DNA of 64,000 nt from Sphingomonas sp. Leaf67 (GTDB taxonomy: Bacteria; Pseudomonadota; Alphaproteobacteria; Sphingomonadales; Sphingomonadaceae): positions 744,001 through 808,000 of the forward strand of contig NZ_LMLP01000001.1 of NCBI RefSeq assembly GCF_001421965.1. The letters are read 5' to 3'. The notes under the pieces are model-generated. The model was not told the DNA's origin, did no database searches, and saw nothing but the letters and a program-made list of their open reading frames with translations. The translations under genes and the position numbers were made by a program. Shown piece after piece: positions 459 through 60,615 of this stretch. How positions within the stretch are numbered: the first letter of the stretch is position 1; the number at the start of each line of letters is the position of its first letter.

Positions 459-1787
459 TCAGTCGGCGAACAGCAGTACCGGCGTTTCGATCAGCCGCTT
501 CAACGCCTGGACATAGCTGGCGGCGTCATGACCGTCGACGACGCGGTGATCGCAACTGATCGACAGGTTCATCAGCTTGGCCTTGACGATTTCCTCGCCG
601 CCACCGGCGCGCGCGCGGAACACCGGGCGTTCGACGATGCGGTTCGGGCCGATGATCGCGACTTCGGGGCGATTGATGACCGGGGTGGTCGCGATGCCGC
701 CGAGCGGCCCCAGCGAGGTGACGGTGATCGTGCCGCCCGACAGTTCCTCCGACTTCGCCTTGCCGGTGCGTGCCGCCTCAGCCAGCCGGACGATCTCGGT
801 CGCGAGCTGCCACGGGTTCAGGTCCTGCGCGTCGCGGATTACCGGAACCATCAGCCCGGCATCGGTCTGCGCCGCCATGCCCAGATGCACCCGCCCGAAC
901 CGCGTCACCACCCCAGCCTCGTCGTCATAGCGCGCGTTGAGCATCGGGAAATCGGACAGCGTGCGGCAGATCGCGACGATCAGCAGCGGCAGCATGGTCA
1001 GCTTTGGCCGGGACCCACGCGCCATGTTCAGGTCGCCGCGCATCGCCTCCAGCGCGGTGACGTCGATCTCCTCGACATAGGTGAAGTGCGGGATGTGGCG
1101 CTTGGCCGCCGCCATGTTCTCGGCGATGCGGCGGCGCATGCCGATGACCTTGACGGTTTCGTCCGGGCGGGCGCGCGATACGTTGGGGGTGTGATAGCCC
1201 TGTGCGCTGCCGTAGCGGAGGTACGCGTCGAGATCGGCATGGCGGATGTGGGGACCGTCATGGTGGACGGCGGACAGGTCGATGCCGAGGTCGGCTGCGC
1301 GGGCGCGGACGGCCGGTGAGGCCAGAACTCTTCCCCGTTCATGGGTAGAGGGACCGTCCGGCGTAGCCGGATGGTGGAGGGGGGTGGCCTCTTGCGGGAC
1401 GGCAGCTGGCGTTGCGTCCAGCGGCGCGCCCCCTCCACCATGCTGCGCATGGTCCCCCTCCCCGTTCCGGGGAGAGGTTGCAACCTCCTCCACACCCGGA
1501 TTTTCCGCCTCGACCCGCTCGGGTTCGGCCGGCTGGACGACCTCTTCGGCCGTCTCGATCACGACCAGTGTCGCGCCGATCGCCACCTGGTCGCCCGGCT
1601 CGCCCGCCAGTTCGACGACGGTGCCCGCGACCGGGCTTTCCATCTCGACCGTCGCCTTGTCGGTCATCATGTCGGCGAGACGGCCGTCTTCCTCGACACG
1701 GTCGCCGACGGCGACGTGCCATGCGACGATCTCGGCCTCGGAAATGCCTTCACCGATATCGGGCAGGCGGAAGGAGAAACGTGCCAT
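459..1787 (-). CDS. bkdB: Branched-chain alpha-keto acid dehydrogenase E2 (dihydrolipoamide acyltransferase)
   Basis: E2 core of a 2-oxoacid dehydrogenase complex: it moves the acyl group from E1 through lipoamide to CoA. The 442-residue protein has an N-terminal lipoyl domain (1-80) with the lipoyl lysine in DKATVE at residue 44. A peripheral-subunit-binding domain follows at about 154-190, then a catalytic domain ending with DHRVVDG (His414, Asp418). Residues about 104-155, in the flexible linker, are encoded by an in-frame copy of the palindromic repeat found between genes elsewhere in the window. It is the last gene of the E1alpha-E1beta-E2 operon, starting 6 bp after E1beta. No E3 (lipoamide dehydrogenase) gene follows. 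The E1alpha type points to branched-chain rather than pyruvate dehydrogenase; substrate is inferred. Confidence 0.9.
   Translation of the reverse strand: MARFSFRLPDIGEGISEAEIVAWHVAVGDRVEEDGRLADMMTDKATVEMESPVAGTVVELAGEPGDQVAIGATLVVIETAEEVVQPAEPERVEAENPGVEEVATSPRNGEGDHAQHGGGGAPLDATPAAVPQEATPLHHPATPDGPSTHERGRVLASPAVRARAADLGIDLSAVHHDGPHIRHADLDAYLRYGSAQGYHTPNVSRARPDETVKVIGMRRRIAENMAAAKRHIPHFTYVEEIDVTALEAMRGDLNMARGSRPKLTMLPLLIVAICRTLSDFPMLNARYDDEAGVVTRFGRVHLGMAAQTDAGLMVPVIRDAQDLNPWQLATEIVRLAEAARTGKAKSEELSGGTITVTSLGPLGGIATTPVINRPEVAIIGPNRIVERPVFRARAGGGEEIVKAKLMNLSISCDHRVVDGHDAASYVQALKRLIETPVLLFAD
1330..1477. repeat. Family 1 repeat copy B, inside the E2 coding sequence
   Basis: Two inverted arms carrying the family-1 modules: CTTCCCCG / GAGGGACC / GTGGAGGGG on the left, and CCCCTCCACCA / GGTCCCC / CTCCCCGTTCCGGGGAG on the right. 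It is read through in frame as part of the E2 interdomain linker, coding for Gly-, His- and Pro-rich residues such as HGGGGAP and PLHHPATPDGPS. All other full copies here are intergenic. Confidence 0.85.
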
Positions 1788-1793
1788 GGCTTG

Positions 1794-2807
1794 TCAGTCC
1801 TGCATGATTTTCTTGAGCGCTTGTCCGATGCGGACCGGCCCCGGGAAATACGCCCATTCGAGGCTATGCGGATACGGCGTGTCGAAGCCGGTCACGCGCT
1901 CGATCGGCGCTTCGAGATGGTGGAAGCAGCGTTCCTGCACCAGCGCCGACAGTTCGGCACCGAAGCCGCCCGTCCGGGTCGCCTCGTGCACGATCATGCA
2001 GCGGCCGGTCTTCTTCACAGACGCCTCGATCGCCTCGATATCGAGCGGCACCAGCGTGCGCAGATCGAGGATTTCGGCGTCGATCCCGGCTGCTTCCACG
2101 GTCGCCTGCGCGACATGGACCATGGTGCCATAGGCGAGAATGGTCAGGTCGCCACCTTCGCGCACGACCTTCGCCTTGCCCAGCTCGATCCGGTAATAGT
2201 CCTCGGGTACCTCACCTTGCGGGTGTTTCGACCAGTTCTGCGCCGGCTTGTCCCAATTGCCGTCGAACGGGCCGTTATAGATGCGCTTGGGTTCGAAGAA
2301 GAGGACCGGGTCATTGTCCTCGATCGCAGCGATCAGCAGCCCCTTAGCATCATAGGGCGTCGACGGGATCACCGTCTTGATGCCCGATACGTGGGTGAAG
2401 ATGCCTTCGGGCGACTGGCTGTGGGTCTGTCCACCGAAGATGCCGCCGCCGAACGGCGAGCGGACCGTGATCGGCGCGATGAAATCGCCGGCCGAGCGAT
2501 AGCGCAGCCGGGCCGCCTCGCTGACCAGCTGGTCGAGCGCGGGATAGATGTAATCGGCGAACTGGATTTCCGGCACTGGACGCAGGCCATAGGCCCCCAT
2601 GCCGACCGCGACGCCGATGATGCCGCATTCGGTGATCGGCGTGTCGAACACGCGGGTCTTGCCATATTTGTTCTGAAGGCCCGCGGTCGCGCGGAACACC
2701 CCGCCGAAATAGCCGACATCCTCGCCCATCACGATGACGTTCGGATCGCGATCCATCATGACATCCATGGCGGAATTGATCGCCTGGATCATGTTCATGC
2801 GCGCCAT
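1794..2807 (-). CDS. bkdA2: 2-oxoisovalerate dehydrogenase E1 beta subunit
   Basis: Beta subunit of the thiamine-diphosphate-dependent E1 that decarboxylates branched-chain 2-oxo acids. The protein has 337 residues, the usual length. It carries the transketolase pyrimidine-binding region near the N-terminus (VMGEDVGYFGGVFRATAGL, then DTPITECGIIGVAVG) and the transketolase C-terminal domain (ILDLRTLVPLDIEAIEASV, then RCMIVHEATRTGGFGAE). It starts with ATG just after the E1alpha stop, so translation is probably coupled, and it precedes E2 by 6 bp. Confidence 0.93.
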   Translation of the reverse strand: MARMNMIQAINSAMDVMMDRDPNVIVMGEDVGYFGGVFRATAGLQNKYGKTRVFDTPITECGIIGVAVGMGAYGLRPVPEIQFADYIYPALDQLVSEAARLRYRSAGDFIAPITVRSPFGGGIFGGQTHSQSPEGIFTHVSGIKTVIPSTPYDAKGLLIAAIEDNDPVLFFEPKRIYNGPFDGNWDKPAQNWSKHPQGEVPEDYYRIELGKAKVVREGGDLTILAYGTMVHVAQATVEAAGIDAEILDLRTLVPLDIEAIEASVKKTGRCMIVHEATRTGGFGAELSALVQERCFHHLEAPIERVTGFDTPYPHSLEWAYFPGPVRIGQALKKIMQD

Positions 2808-2808
2808 G

Positions 2809-4101
2809 TCAGTGGCCCTCCTTGCGCGCCCAGGGGCGGCCGGAGGCTTCCTCCTCGGCCATCATCTGCGCCTGCTGCTCGCGCAGGTGCCACGGCATTT
2901 CCTCGAACACGCCGTCGAACAGCGTGTCGAGCGGCTGGTGCAGGCCGTGACCGAGAATGCCGTTGGCTTCCGCTTCCTTCTGGGCAGCGCGTACGCGTTC
3001 GGCGACGTCGCGATCCATTGCCGCGTGACGCTCGTCGTCCCACTCGCCGATCGCGATCAGATGTCCTTTCAGCCGCGCGATGGGATCGCCCAGCGGCCAT
3101 GCCGTCGGTTCGCCCGCCGATCGATATTGCGACGGGTCATCGGAGGTCGAATGGCCCTCGGCACGATAGGTGAAATGCTCGATCAGCGTCGGACCGGCAT
3201 TGGTCCGTGCCCGCTCGGCCGCCCATGCCGTCGCGGCATAGACCGCGAGCGCGTCATTGCCGTCGACCCGCAGGCCGGCGATGCCATAGCCGATCGCCCG
3301 CGCGGCAAAGGTCGTCGCCTCCGCCCCCGCGAACCCCGAAAAGCTGCTGATCGCCCACTGGTTGTTGACGACGTTGAAGATCACCGGCGCGCGATAGACC
3401 GTGGCGAAGGTCAGCGCGGAATGGAAGTCGCCTTCCGCCGTGCTCCCCTCCCCGCACCACGTCGCCGCGATGCGGGTATCGCCCTTGGAGGCCGAGGCCA
3501 TCGCCCAGCCGACCGCCTGCGGATATTGCGTCGTCAGGTTGCCCGAGATCGAGAAGAAGCCATAGTCCTTCGACGAATACATGATCGGCAGCTGCTTGCC
3601 CTGCAGCTTGTCGCCGCGGTTCGAGTAGATCTGGTTCATCATCTCGACCATCGGGTAATCGCGCGCGATCAGGATGCCCTGCTGCCGATAGCTGGGGAAG
3701 GTCATGTCGTCGCGGTCGAGCGCCATCGTGCCGGCGACGGCGATCGCCTCTTCGCCGGTGCATTTCATGTAGAAGCTGGTCTTGCCCTGCCGCTGGGCGC
3801 GGAACATGCGCTCGTCGAAGGCGCGGACCGTCGCCATGTGGCGCAGCATCCGGCGCAACACGTCCGGGTCGAGGCGCGGGTTCCACGGGCCGACCGCCTG
3901 CCCCTGCGCATCCAGCACCCGGACCAACGTGTAGGACAGTTCGTGGAAGCTGTCGGGGGCGGCAGTCGTGTCGGGACGCGGCTGCGCACCGGCGGCGGGC
4001 ACGGCCACGTCGGCAAAGTCGACCGCGTCGCCGGGACGGAATTTGGGTTCGGGCACATGCAGCGCAAGGCGCGGCAGATTCGTGCGGCTATCGCCGGTCA
4101 T
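2809..4101 (-). CDS. bkdA1: 2-oxoisovalerate dehydrogenase E1 alpha subunit
   Basis: Alpha subunit of E1, which binds thiamine diphosphate and forms a heterotetramer with E1beta. The 430-residue protein has the ThDP motif reading WCGEGSTAEGDFH and ending VNNQWAIS. A loop YRAEGHSTSDDPSQYR matches the conserved region that is phosphorylated in mitochondrial homologues. The length and an N-terminal extension of about 70 residues fit the BCKDH class rather than pyruvate dehydrogenase. The ATG at 4101 has a GGAG five bases upstream. It is the first gene of the operon; a palindrome and a possible promoter lie 50-75 bp upstream. Confidence 0.93.
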   Translation of the reverse strand: MTGDSRTNLPRLALHVPEPKFRPGDAVDFADVAVPAAGAQPRPDTTAAPDSFHELSYTLVRVLDAQGQAVGPWNPRLDPDVLRRMLRHMATVRAFDERMFRAQRQGKTSFYMKCTGEEAIAVAGTMALDRDDMTFPSYRQQGILIARDYPMVEMMNQIYSNRGDKLQGKQLPIMYSSKDYGFFSISGNLTTQYPQAVGWAMASASKGDTRIAATWCGEGSTAEGDFHSALTFATVYRAPVIFNVVNNQWAISSFSGFAGAEATTFAARAIGYGIAGLRVDGNDALAVYAATAWAAERARTNAGPTLIEHFTYRAEGHSTSDDPSQYRSAGEPTAWPLGDPIARLKGHLIAIGEWDDERHAAMDRDVAERVRAAQKEAEANGILGHGLHQPLDTLFDGVFEEMPWHLREQQAQMMAEEEASGRPWARKEGH

Positions 4102-4177: not shown

Positions 4178-4249
4178 CGCGCTTGGCGAGAGGGAGGACG
4201 GGTCCGGTGGGCGCTTTCGTCGAAATGGCGTGAGGTTACGACCGAAATT

Positions 4250-4380
4250 CCTCCCCCATTCATGGGGGCAGGGGGGACCTTCCGCAGGACGGTGGAGCGG
4301 GTATCCGCACTCGCAACGGGTCCGTATGCGGACGCCCCCCTCCACCAGCTTCGCTGGTCCCCCTCCCCGTGTCGGGGAGG
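4250..4380. repeat. Family 1 palindromic repeat, copy C
   Basis: Inverted arms with the family-1 modules: CCTCCCCCATTCATGGGGG on the left, CCCCTCCACCAGC and CTCCCCGTGTCGGGGAGG on the right. The right edge is two bases from the dcp stop codon, so the element lies in the 3' end of the dcp transcript and upstream of the bkd promoter region. Confidence 0.85.
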
Positions 4381-4382
4381 AA

Positions 4383-6521
4383 TTACTGGACCGGGAAGCC
4401 GCGGCGCTTGAACAGCGCGGTCACGTCCGGGTCGCGTCCACGGAAGGCGCGATAGGCTTCCTTGCGGTCCGTTTCGTTGCCGGTCGACAGCAGCGTCTTG
4501 CGGAAACGATCCGCCGTTGCCTTGTCCCAGACATTGCCGGTCGCCTCGAACGCGGCCCAAGTGTCGGCGTCCATCGCTTCCGACCACAGATAGGAATAAT
4601 AGCCCGCCGAATAGGCATCGGACGAGAACAGGTGATTGAACTGCGGCAGGCGGTGCCGCATCACGATCTCCTTGGGCATCCCGATCTGTGCCAGCGTGTC
4701 GCGCTCGAACGCCGCCGGGTCGGTCACCGGCGTTTCACGGTCGTGCAATGCCATGTCGACGATCGCCGACGACAGATACTCGACCGTCGAGAAACCCTGA
4801 TTGAAGGTCGACGACTTTTCGATCTTGTCGACCAGCGCCTGCGGCATCGGCTGGCCGGTCTGGTAATGTTTGGCATAGCGGTCGAGTACGTCGCGGGTCA
4901 GCAACCAGTTTTCGTTCACCTGGCTGGGATATTCGACGAAGTCGCGCGGCGTACCGGCAAGACCCGGATAGGTTACGTCCTGCAACAACGAATGGATCGC
5001 ATGGCCGAATTCGTGGAACAGCGTCGTCGCGTCGTCGAGGCTGATCAGCGTCGGCTGTCCGGCCGCGCCCTTCACGAAATTATTGTTGTTCGACGCCAGC
5101 ACGTTGGTCTCGCCGCCCAGCTTCTGCTGGCCGCGATACCGGGTCGCCCATGCCCCCGATCGCTTGCCCGAACGCGCGAACGCATCGAAATAGAACACAC
5201 CGACATTCTTGCCCGTCCGCGCGTCGGTCACGACGAAGGTCCGAACATTTTTTTCGAACACCGGAATCTGCCCGGTATTCTCGGTGAATTTCAGGTCGTA
5301 GAGCCGTCCCGCCGCATAAAAGGCACCGGCAAGGATATTGTCGAGTTGCAGATACGGCTTCACCTCGCTTTCATCGAGGTCGTACTTCGCCTTGCGCACC
5401 TTTTCGGCATAGAAGCGATAATCCCATGGCGCGATCGTGATGGTGGCGCCGTCCTTCACGGCAAGCGCCTGCATGTCCGCCACTTCCTCCCGCACGCGCG
5501 CGACGGCGGCGGGCCAGACGCGCATCATCAGCGCCTTCGCATTGGCAGGCGTGCCCGCCATCGTATCGTCCATGCGGAGATAGGCGTGGTTGCGGAAGCC
5601 GAGCAGTTTTGCCCGCTCCTGCCGCAGCTTCAGGATCGTGGCGATCGTCGCCTTGGTATCGTTCGCGCCGCCATTGTCGCCGCGCATGGTGAACGCCCGC
5701 CAGACCTTTTCGCGCAAAGCCCGGTCGGTGGCATAGGTCAGCACCGGCGCGACCGACGACCGCGTGTTCACGATCGCCCATTTACCGGCAAGGCCGCGTT
5801 CGTCGGCCGCCGCCTTCAGCGATGCGACGAAGCTGTCGGGCAGGCCCGCCAACTGCTTTGCATCGTCGACGACGATCCACGTCTCCTCGTCGGCAAGGAC
5901 CTTCTGGCTGAAGTCGTTATAGGCGACCGACAGCTGCTGGTTCAGGCCGCTGACCTGCTGACGCTGCGCATCGGTCAGCAGGCTGCCGCGCCGGACGAAG
6001 CTGCGATAGGTCCGCTCCAGCAGGCGCAATTGCTGGGGGTTCAGATTCTGTTTGGCGCGGCTGTCGTACGCCGCCTTGATCCGGGCGAACAGTTTCGGGT
6101 CGAGGAACAGTTCGTCGTTGAACGCCGACAGTTTGGGCGACCATTCGCGGTCGATCGCCTGCACCTCCTTCGTCGCGAGGTTGCTGGTATAGACGCCCCA
6201 CATCGACCCGACCCGGTCCATCATGTTGCCGGCCAGTTGCAGCGGTTCGATGACCGTCCTGAACGTCGCCGGTCGCTTGTCGTCACGGATCGCGTGGATC
6301 TCGCGGCGCATCTCGGCCATCGCCACCGGGAAGGCGGCCGGGAACATCGCCGGCGTCACCTTGTCCCATGGCGGCACCCCTTGATACGGCCCGCCCCATT
6401 TCGCCGTCAGCGGGGTGGTGTCGATGGCGGCGACGGCAGTCGGGGTTTGCGGCATGGCGGCTCCATTCGCCGGAAGCGCGAAAGCGGTCGTGGCAAGCAA
6501 CGCGCCGAGACGTACGATCAT
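4383..6521 (-). CDS. dcp: M3 family metallopeptidase (peptidyl-dipeptidase Dcp)
   Basis: Zinc peptidase that removes dipeptides from peptide C-termini. The chosen start, ATG at 6521, gives 712 residues and an N-terminal signal peptide (MIVRLGALLATTAFALPANGA), so the enzyme is predicted to be periplasmic. An upstream in-frame extension of 27 codons lacks signal character and the start at 6521 has a GGACC-like ribosome site. The zinc motif is HEFGH at residues 503-507, with the third ligand probably Glu530 in FVEYPSQ, as known for M3 peptidases. It is transcribed away from the small gene at 6623. Confidence 0.92.
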   Translation of the reverse strand: MIVRLGALLATTAFALPANGAAMPQTPTAVAAIDTTPLTAKWGGPYQGVPPWDKVTPAMFPAAFPVAMAEMRREIHAIRDDKRPATFRTVIEPLQLAGNMMDRVGSMWGVYTSNLATKEVQAIDREWSPKLSAFNDELFLDPKLFARIKAAYDSRAKQNLNPQQLRLLERTYRSFVRRGSLLTDAQRQQVSGLNQQLSVAYNDFSQKVLADEETWIVVDDAKQLAGLPDSFVASLKAAADERGLAGKWAIVNTRSSVAPVLTYATDRALREKVWRAFTMRGDNGGANDTKATIATILKLRQERAKLLGFRNHAYLRMDDTMAGTPANAKALMMRVWPAAVARVREEVADMQALAVKDGATITIAPWDYRFYAEKVRKAKYDLDESEVKPYLQLDNILAGAFYAAGRLYDLKFTENTGQIPVFEKNVRTFVVTDARTGKNVGVFYFDAFARSGKRSGAWATRYRGQQKLGGETNVLASNNNNFVKGAAGQPTLISLDDATTLFHEFGHAIHSLLQDVTYPGLAGTPRDFVEYPSQVNENWLLTRDVLDRYAKHYQTGQPMPQALVDKIEKSSTFNQGFSTVEYLSSAIVDMALHDRETPVTDPAAFERDTLAQIGMPKEIVMRHRLPQFNHLFSSDAYSAGYYSYLWSEAMDADTWAAFEATGNVWDKATADRFRKTLLSTGNETDRKEAYRAFRGRDPDVTALFKRRGFPVQ

Positions 6522-18063: not shown

Positions 18064-18309
18064 GGCTCACACGAAGGCGCGAAGACGCGAAGAGAAGAAG
18101 AAGGGAGTTTTCGCGCAGAGGCGCGGAGGCGCAGAGAGGTTGCGGATCTGGCGATCGTTCTGCGATCGGTAGACGCCTTCGCCCCCTGCCAATGAGTTGA
18201 AGGCCGCTGGCGCGGCGGAGAGGTTCCACGACCGCAACCCCTCCGCGTCTCCGCGCCTCCGCGCGAACCACTCTTCTTCTCTTTGCGCCTTCGCGCCTTC
18301 GCGTGAACC
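18064..18309. repeat. Inverted pair of about 80-bp repeats between guaA and an S9 peptidase
   Basis: Left arm 18064-18144 (ACGAAGGCGCGAAGACGCG, AGAAGAAG, then GCGCAGAGGCGCGGAGG). Right arm 18232-18309 is an imperfect reverse complement (CTCCGCGCCTCCGCGCG, TTCTTCTC, GCGCCTTCGCGCCTTCGCG). Each arm has short GCGAAGG / GGCGCGGA tandem units. The right arm abuts the stop of the peptidase gene. No gene is seen in this 318-bp gap. Confidence 0.8.
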
Positions 18310-56166: not shown

Positions 56167-56188
56167 GCAGGATTTCTCTCAATACACC

Positions 56189-56270
56189 GTATCCCCGCGC
56201 AGGCGGGGATCCAGGGCGACAATCGACGCCGGTTCTGTATGGCTCTGGATCCCCACCTGCGCGGGGATAC
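56189..56270. repeat. 26-bp inverted repeat between ruvC and ruvA
   Basis: GTATCCCCGCGCAGGCGGGG ATCCAG (56189-56214) and its reverse (56245-56270) match over 26 bp with one difference. Each arm also folds on itself. This CCCCGCGCAGGCGGGG type is a frequent dispersed repeat in sphingomonads; in place it could form a strong structure in the ruv mRNA. Confidence 0.8.
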
Positions 56271-56284
56271 GGGCGCGGCAAGGG

Positions 56285-56802: not shown

Positions 56803-56929
56803 CCCTCCCCGTTCACGGGGAGGGCGACCAGCGTAGCTGGTGGAGGGGGGCTTCCGCGAGCGCTGTGCTGCGAGGTGCTCCCCCTCCACCACCGCTGCGC
56901 GGCGGTCCCCCTCCCCGCAGGCGGGGAGG
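56803..56929. repeat. Family 1 palindromic repeat, copy G
   Basis: Two inverted arms with the family-1 modules fill the yebC-ruvC gap. Left CCCTCCCCGTTCACGGGGAGG and GTGGAGGGGGG; right CCCCCTCCACCACCGC and CTCCCCGCAGGCGGGGAGG. Its left stem holds the ruvC ribosome site; its right edge is 10 bp from the yebC stop. Confidence 0.85.
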
Positions 56930-60480: not shown

Positions 60481-60489
60481 GCTGCAATT

Positions 60490-60615
60490 CCTCCCCGGCA
60501 AGGGGAGGGAAATCATTGCCGAAGGCGATGGTGGAGGGGGCGCTCCACGAGCGATCCGTACGCGGAAATCTCCCTTCGCCAGCGTCGCCGGTCCCCCTCC
60601 CAGTGCCGGGGGGGG
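60490..60615. repeat. Family 1 palindromic repeat, copy H
   Basis: Fills the pyk / transglutaminase gap. Left CCTCCCCGGCAAGGGGAGG and GGTGGAGGGGG; right CCCTTCGCCAGCG and GGTCCCCCTCCCAGTGCCGG. The right edge touches the transglutaminase stop codon. Degenerate compared with copies A and C. Confidence 0.8.

Follow-up and report, generated by a model that had tools for sequence, protein, structure and literature searches.

The window, that is, the whole 64,000-nucleotide stretch of Sphingomonas sp. Leaf67 DNA analysed here, carries three branched-chain 2-oxoacid dehydrogenase genes, all on the minus strand. From the look of their sequences we take two of them to encode E1-alpha and E1-beta. The third encodes E2, the dihydrolipoyl acyltransferase, a protein of 442 aa whose acyltransferase domain spans residues 208-440 (Pfam) and which is matched at E ≤ 1e-130 in 289 of 295 same-genus genomes. 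A palindromic repeat lies within the coding sequence of this gene, and further copies of its family, termed family A, lie between genes of the window:

281-415, no strand assigned: intergenic family-A copy directly 3' of the E2 gene
459-1787, minus strand: branched-chain 2-oxoacid dehydrogenase E2 (dihydrolipoyl acyltransferase), the host gene, from the open reading frame and Pfam PF00364, PF02817 and PF00198
1263-1328, minus strand: E3-binding domain, residues 154-175, which bounds the acceptor linker on its downstream side (Pfam PF02817)
1330-1477, minus strand: in-frame palindromic repeat of family A, about 49 codons (148 bp), between the lipoyl and E3-binding domains
1330-1386, minus strand: 3' arm of the repeat, which resembles the 5' arm in inverted orientation but has another tip on its inner hairpin
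1387-1428, minus strand: spacer separating the two arms
1429-1477, minus strand: 5' arm of the repeat, outer hairpin CTCCCC-GGAAC-GGGGAG plus inner hairpin CCATGC-GCA-GCATGG
1557-1772, minus strand: lipoyl domain, residues 6-77, which bounds the acceptor linker on its upstream side (Pfam PF00364)
1794-2807, minus strand: E1-beta, from the list of open reading frames
2809-4101, minus strand: E1-alpha, from the list of open reading frames
4243-4383, no strand assigned: intergenic family-A copy upstream of the E1-alpha, E1-beta and E2 genes
56803-56917, no strand assigned: intergenic family-A copy
60489-60615, no strand assigned: diverged intergenic family-A copy, found by repeat search

The first-pass annotation of this DNA had placed a repeat of about 50 residues in frame in the linker between the lipoyl and subunit-binding domains of E2, and the open reading frame and Pfam boundaries bear this out: the segment at 1330-1477 is free of stops and contributes about 49 residues. 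Its fold reaches -91.6 kcal/mol against a mean of -69.2 for shuffled versions (z = -5.9), and none of 200 shuffles was equally stable. The outer end of the 3' arm has decayed in the window genome relative to sister genomes, and a GGCGTCC string stands at the inner end of some family-A arms. In an AlphaFold model built with 29 sequences, E2 residues 82-152 fall below pLDDT 50, with a whole-model mean of 69, and the peptide encoded by the repeat is thus predicted to be unstructured. We also entertained an internal start provided by the GGGGAGGA arm end lying ahead of a GTG, and dropped it because the GTG is missing in the group around S. faeni.

An intergenic repeat that became protein was the earlier explanation of this segment, and two comparisons agree with it. 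The arms match the intergenic copies, and L040, a relative whose E2 is 88% identical to that of the window, has a shorter, plain Ala/Pro linker. Intergenic copies had been listed at 281, 4250, 56803 and 60490; the first three are clear, and the fourth is more diverged, having been found by the repeat search and being absent from the 70 family-A BLAST matches in this genome. These 70 matches merge into 40 distinct elements, and the random chance of 40 elements reaching one given 150-bp linker is about 0.0014. The copy at 281-415 is not present downstream of E2 in 11 relatives, whose sequences do not align there.

To place the insert among relatives, we read the E2 linker in 57 distinct same-genus linkers, 80 named records and a family-level sample of 67 loci, the last including three same-genus rows outside the 57. 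In all, 204 E2 loci were returned or fetched and 198 were read, six of the 67 family-level loci having no anchors; removal of 17 duplicates with identical linker DNA left 181 distinct linkers. When the sequences are set side by side, the two domains are conserved, and an EAENPGVEE-like motif is also kept in most same-genus rows. The stretch between this motif and LASPAVR is variable and holds either one of many repeat-like peptides (PGTGRGT..PPPRAGE; PSPLRGEGRGEG..HPSPLPAGERE; PLPLAGGAGGG; PAREGPGVG..PSLAGRG; VRPEPVEG; PAKAGAQ..GPRPSPG; PLPFRGGVGVG; SPLQGRGLGEG..LSPEGER) or a plain linker, often Ala/Pro-rich, of the kind found in L040. The relatives therefore do not all share the window's segment but carry different, unrelated repeats or none. 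The short acidic motif itself (window ~1490-1520) is kept in an otherwise free linker directly before the acceptor site; variants of it include AETPG.. and, in some other genera, VETPDASDADD.

Family labels were assigned by BLAST against 35 seed linkers chosen by eye, at 45 bits or more, the seeds labelling themselves. On this basis 114 of the 181 linkers carry a repeat with one of nine family labels (A 29, B 18, E 18, F 13, I 10, D 10, C 7, H 5, G 4), 46 carry none and 21 were set aside as ambiguous. A repeat occupies 47 of the 57 same-genus linkers (6 none, 4 ambiguous; ten of the 57 rows are the window's own clade), 52 of 66 further named records (9 none, 5 ambiguous) and 15 of 58 linkers in the family-level sample (31 none, 12 ambiguous), all from loci ranked by similarity to a repeat-containing query, which may favour carriers. 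Occupancy is therefore common in the genus and patchy outside it. A test independent of homology gave a similar picture: the best inverted repeat beat 12 of 12 codon shuffles in 118 of the 181 E2 linkers, with about 14 expected, and the test was passed by 105 of the 114 labelled linkers and by 70 of the 79 labelled linkers that were not seeds.

The linkers of the paralogous PDH and OGDH E2 proteins served as a control (39 loci from same-genus genomes, one of 40, L172, having no anchors). Only 3 of these 39 linkers exceeded all shuffles, as against 3 expected, and in view of the 118 E2 linkers that did so, chance palindromes were rejected as the source of the E2 pattern. By the same labelling method, seed-family matches were found in none of the 39, although these linkers are 25-88 residues long; the difference from 47 of 57 gives a Fisher p of 7e-18, which is nominal in that the 4 ambiguous linkers are counted as lacking a repeat and related rows are taken as independent. 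The tolerance of linkers to insertions, offered earlier as the reason for survival, is for this reason insufficient by itself. These comparisons indicate that the E2 linker is a recurrent acceptor site for unrelated palindromic families in sphingomonads. The insertion proposed by the first-pass annotation stands in so far as an intergenic repeat entered E2, but the linker is a recurrently occupied site and not the outcome of one event. We noticed that one of the three linkers that exceeded their shuffles, a PDH E2 linker (L155, genome G028), looks like a real palindrome, with no seed-family match at the threshold.

Unrelated families occupy one and the same position in some proteins whose cores are 97-99% identical. 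Cores are at least 97% identical in 91 pairs, of which 46 differ in state, 43 of these with a repeat on both sides. The majority (40 of the 43) come from a single 13-member group around S. faeni and S. aurantiaca, which at the same place holds eight B, two F and three A elements; the other three are independent of that group (L002/L071, C/E; L045/L054, A/I; L126/L129, H/F). At 95-97% core identity, a further 28 of 83 pairs are in different states, and in 20 of these each partner carries a repeat. G-rich motifs are common to families B, C, D, G and I, so some of the apparent swaps among these five could be divergence or conversion. On a core tree of 114 rows, in which 47 of 110 inner branches are weak, the states require a minimum of 60 changes, as against 78.5 with shuffled labels, and the nearest neighbour is in another state for 69 of the 114 rows; well-supported branches alone force 9 changes for A, 8 for E, 7 for F and 5 for C. 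Families A and B and the state without a repeat cluster on the tree, with none of 500 shuffles reaching so low a value, and are therefore partly inherited. In L050 and L065 (S. gilva), the left arm of an A element is followed by a whole family-I element, an arrangement that reads as a frozen step of replacement, and L126, L111 and L133 look nested.

Linkers with different repeats might instead have crossed between species as cassettes, by homologous recombination through the conserved flanks. Such exchange would suit families E, F, D, I and H, whose clustering on the tree is not significant (between 94 and 500 of 500 shuffles reach a value as low). It would also suit the TDK1 G element, which is nearly invariant (1.8% of third positions differ, as against 14.5% in the core) while the linker preceding it differs by 36%. 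More generally, the linker directly before the element differs at 36-55% of third positions, above core divergence in all six groups compared, so that a very short recombination tract could have ended inside the linker. In the flanking domains of seven swapped pairs, however, only a few bases differ per 60, with no rise toward the linker relative to four unswapped pairs and with no imported tract visible. Moreover, the E2 element of L019 has the spacer of the intergenic B copies in its own species group, whereas its relatives keep a different spacer, and exchange between species leaves the first arrival of a repeat unexplained. We consider cassette exchange unlikely as the main account of the swaps.

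Seven E2 genes of the faeni group have one common B insertion, in which 5.8% of third positions and 5.6% of first and second positions differ, compared with 25% and 1.8% on the catalytic side of the core; the element is therefore not under ordinary protein constraint. Variable columns make up 0 of 40 in the outer stems, 1 of 22 in the inner stems, 10 of 40 in the spacer and junctions and 5 of 6 in the loops of this single insertion (seven genomes), on which the stem-versus-loop comparison rests. In the same insertion, 1 of 21 third codon positions in the stems is variable, as against 85 of 134 in flanking sequence, which comprises the lipoyl domain plus the opening codons of the linker on one side and the 80 codons that follow the linker on the other (p = 2e-7); stems differ from spacer at p = 3e-4.

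Stem conservation appears less clear or absent in other insertions. Besides the TDK1 element, third-position differences of element and core are 16.6% and 25.2% for the adhaesiva B element, 14.7% and 21.3% for the F pair, 18.1% and 27.7% for the A element of the window clade, and 19.0% and 18.4% for the faeni A element, which is thus not slower than its core. Across the ten genomes of the window clade, the left outer hairpin varies only in its loop and at an edge base of the window copy, and the right arm has changed in the window and in L034. L036 carries paired changes at two places in the tip of its inner hairpin (CCATGC-GCA-GCATGG to CCAGCC-GCA-GGCTGG). The global consensus fold of the clade omits those local pairs and has both-sided changes in 1 of 47 pairs, and covariation support in this clade is thin.

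The kept stems may reflect selection on a DNA or RNA hairpin, templated correction between the arms, or conversion from other copies. Conversion alone would fit the seven B elements poorly, because all seven retain a spacer, and several of them loops, that differ from those of most intergenic copies that were read. It is conceivable that the hairpin works in the E2 mRNA or DNA, through pausing between domains, mRNA stability or protein binding, with the families interchangeable and only the stem mattering. The stems invariant at synonymous sites beside variable loops in the one B insertion are what such a function would predict, as are the folds of six elements of differing sequence, which all go beyond those of their shuffles (z = -9.42, -6.41, -6.26, -5.01, -2.96 and -2.95), whereas two plain linkers do not (z = -0.90 and +0.99). 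Yet no labelled repeat is present in 6 of the 57 linkers from the genus or in 46 of all 181, the best tree has the presence of a repeat changing no fewer than 20 times, and the same elements occur in unrelated genes and mostly between genes; a hairpin function as the reason for the pattern is in our judgement decidedly doubtful.

The repeats are also found in other proteins. The first-pass annotation had suggested searching the genome for further in-frame copies, and this yielded TruB beside E2: among 30 loci of the window genome, representing 27 distinct elements of the 40 in family A, two lie in genes by an open-frame and codon-composition test. By the same test, 4 of 20 family-B copies in genome G018, all 20 drawn from the strongest matches to an E2 element, are in frame, in genes that we presume from sequence recognition to encode ValS, GcvPB, GlyS and MurD. 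Three of these proteins were followed across relatives:

L179 1085-2395, in the window's own genome C12:215978-216095, minus strand: TruB with an in-frame family-A repeat
L331 682-2100 (G018), minus strand: GlyS (glycyl-tRNA synthetase beta chain) with two in-frame palindromic repeats of different families
L332 3-2099 (G018), plus strand: MurD with an in-frame family-B repeat

In TruB, a repeat occupies the loop preceding the strand that runs into VSKGTYIRS in 13 of 21 same-genus proteins; in seven others this loop measures 8-13 residues (L298 is truncated; L297, with a 45-residue loop in which no palindrome was detected, was scored as none). In GlyS, site 1 holds a repeat in 15 of 20 relatives and has four empty loops of 8 residues, and site 2 holds one in 9 of 20, with L345, which resembles a family-E repeat below the threshold, scored as none. 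In MurD, a repeat stands at the same place in 8 of 21 relatives with anchors, a count outside which falls the query L365, a visible carrier that missed the anchors. The queries for all three proteins were taken from repeat-carrying copies, and the best-matching families at these sites vary between genomes. Valyl-tRNA synthetase (L318) and glycine dehydrogenase subunit 2 (L328) of G018 have one in-frame family-B repeat each.

Dispersal was searched genome-wide for families A, B, F and G. With the best 40 candidates scored per genome, and with one match often representing a single arm or strand, family B gave at least 77, 80, 74, 38, 19 and 5 matches in six genomes. On the same terms, family F gave at least 78-79 in each of three genomes, which are those with at least 77, 80 and 74 B matches, and at least 23 in the window genome, and family G gave at least 46-83 in five genomes. 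The remaining families were compared only with a background of 1.14 Mb, in which few linkers of families C (1 of 8) and I (2 of 10) had a match, though inserts of both families are found again in GlyS and MurD. The B copies that we read lie, by eye, between genes. One of them, L276 (G018 C1:2119919), has an unusual spacer common to several faeni-group E2 elements and is a possible source or offshoot of these.

Could one ancient insertion in the E2 linker have diverged into all of the present segments? Carriers that have the ENPGVEE-like motif do hold their insert at the same place after it, and B, D, G and I have their G-rich motifs in common. Against common descent stand the different families in 43 of the 91 pairs with nearly identical cores (40 in one group), the occurrence of A, B, F and G each as dispersed multicopy repeats, the clean 8-residue empty loops at GlyS site 1 and the two families side by side in L050. 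A single ancestral insertion is thus very improbable, and we rejected it on the swapped near-identical pairs. Mitochondrial byp elements are bypassed in translation, and the supposition that the E2 element is likewise absent from the protein, bypassed or removed, would accord with such stable hairpins in coding DNA but is scarcely credible and was rejected because the same-genus E2 matches listed stay open through the linker with no stop, where open frames would not be needed.

What lies in the E2 linker is probably a mobile, REP-doublet-like palindrome, in frame in a permissive linker that is one of the few sphingomonad sites to be repeatedly recolonised. Several families of such palindromes would insert at a high rate, and most insertions in genes would be purged, the survivors being confined to a small number of disordered or exposed spots able to take up about 35-60 additional residues. 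Insertions would be accepted there because GC-rich palindromes have stop-free frames encoding Gly/Pro-rich, linker-like peptides. Replacement of one family by another would follow from a newer insertion together with deletion of the older palindrome; palindromes are unstable, and the old one would therefore be lost when or after the new one arrives, with the flanks unchanged. By eye, no target-site duplication is seen in the faeni-group and window-clade sequences. Y1 transposases (RAYT/IS200-type, PF01797) gave no match at E ≤ 0.001 in the window's own genome and matched in only 12 of 121 same-genus genomes, and a RAYT-driven REPIN is unsupported in this genome, which has no PF01797 match.

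REPINs consist of two inverted REP-like palindromes and a spacer, about 100-150 bp in all, with tens of copies per genome. Family A resembles them in its two inverted REP palindromes, its spacer and its dispersal. REPINs are described as mobilised by RAYT transposases (PMC3116915), and the present elements differ in the absence of a Y1_Tnp match from their own genome and its rarity in the genus. A second likeness is to the RPE and WPE elements of Rickettsia and Wolbachia, which, as far as the accounts consulted describe them, are palindromes of 100-150 bp in frame in core genes, at exposed sites, and also intergenic. The E2 repeat, at 148 bp and with 40 elements, is of this size and copy number, and the in-frame copies in E2 and TruB here, with four more genes among the 20 G018 copies, appear to be placed in the same way. 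The differences are that the hosts are Sphingomonadaceae, not Rickettsia or Wolbachia (the nearest named record is Sphingomonas sp. Leaf10), that the families are GC-rich, the likeness being one of architecture and placement, and that the swaps here occur between almost identical proteins, which makes recurrent replacement directly visible.

In the R. japonica study (PMC3767692), 18 genes are described whose Rickettsia orthologues have RPE-4, -6 or -7, often with another group in R. felis; one common origin is favoured there for RPE-4/6/7, with hotspots not excludable. Di Nocera et al. 2013 (PMC3733652) describe REPs, as monomers or dimers, within genes of many bacteria. For S. alaskensis and E. 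litoralis they name truB and genes of tRNA synthetases, and they report X. campestris and X. oryzae recB genes with different REPs at about one site. The main text of that paper, in the part consulted, does not name E2, and the string 'lipo' occurs there only in a species name. Among the matches listed in a search of titles and abstract openings, with few subscription papers, nothing further appeared on the E2 linker or on in-frame repeats of sphingomonads.

In-frame palindromes are already a known kind, most familiar from Rickettsia, because RPEs and intragenic REPs have been described before. As judged from sequence comparison, what is added here is 1) recurrence across a genus, 2) multiple families per site, 3) direct replacement between proteins that are nearly identical, 4) clean empty sites, 5) a paralogue control, and 6) one insertion whose stems are clearly conserved even at synonymous sites. 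Genus-wide recurrence, several families per site and stem conservation within coding sequence would go beyond the intragenic REPs as PMC3733652 describes them. For sphingomonads, the findings answer the question left open for Rickettsia (PMC3767692), namely hotspots or one old, diverged insertion. They do so in a free-living, culturable group, with direct replacement of families and several recurrent sites in many species, so that mobility, site choice and effect on fitness become testable. Such segments in databases should be read as mobile DNA and not as conserved domains, and the E2 proteins represent a natural linker library in a 2-oxoacid dehydrogenase.

A broader and more tentative possibility is that sphingomonad core proteins contain heritable docking sites at which unrelated families are exchanged without a RAYT, and that copies there can stay functional as nucleic acid, with constraint on the stems at synonymous sites and none on the loops, while the encoded peptide is irrelevant. 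If true, this would mean a layer of selection, or of hairpin-templated correction, that acts on coding DNA independently of the protein.

Two further palindromic segments were observed in the window. The one at 56187-56272 (CCGTATCCCCGCGCAGGCGGGGATCC...) has a family-F-like look, with 31-nt arms that are 94% complementary. The other, at 18064-18309, has 38-nt inverted arms that are 89% complementary and lie 170 nt apart; it is purine-rich and, by eye, unlike families A-I.
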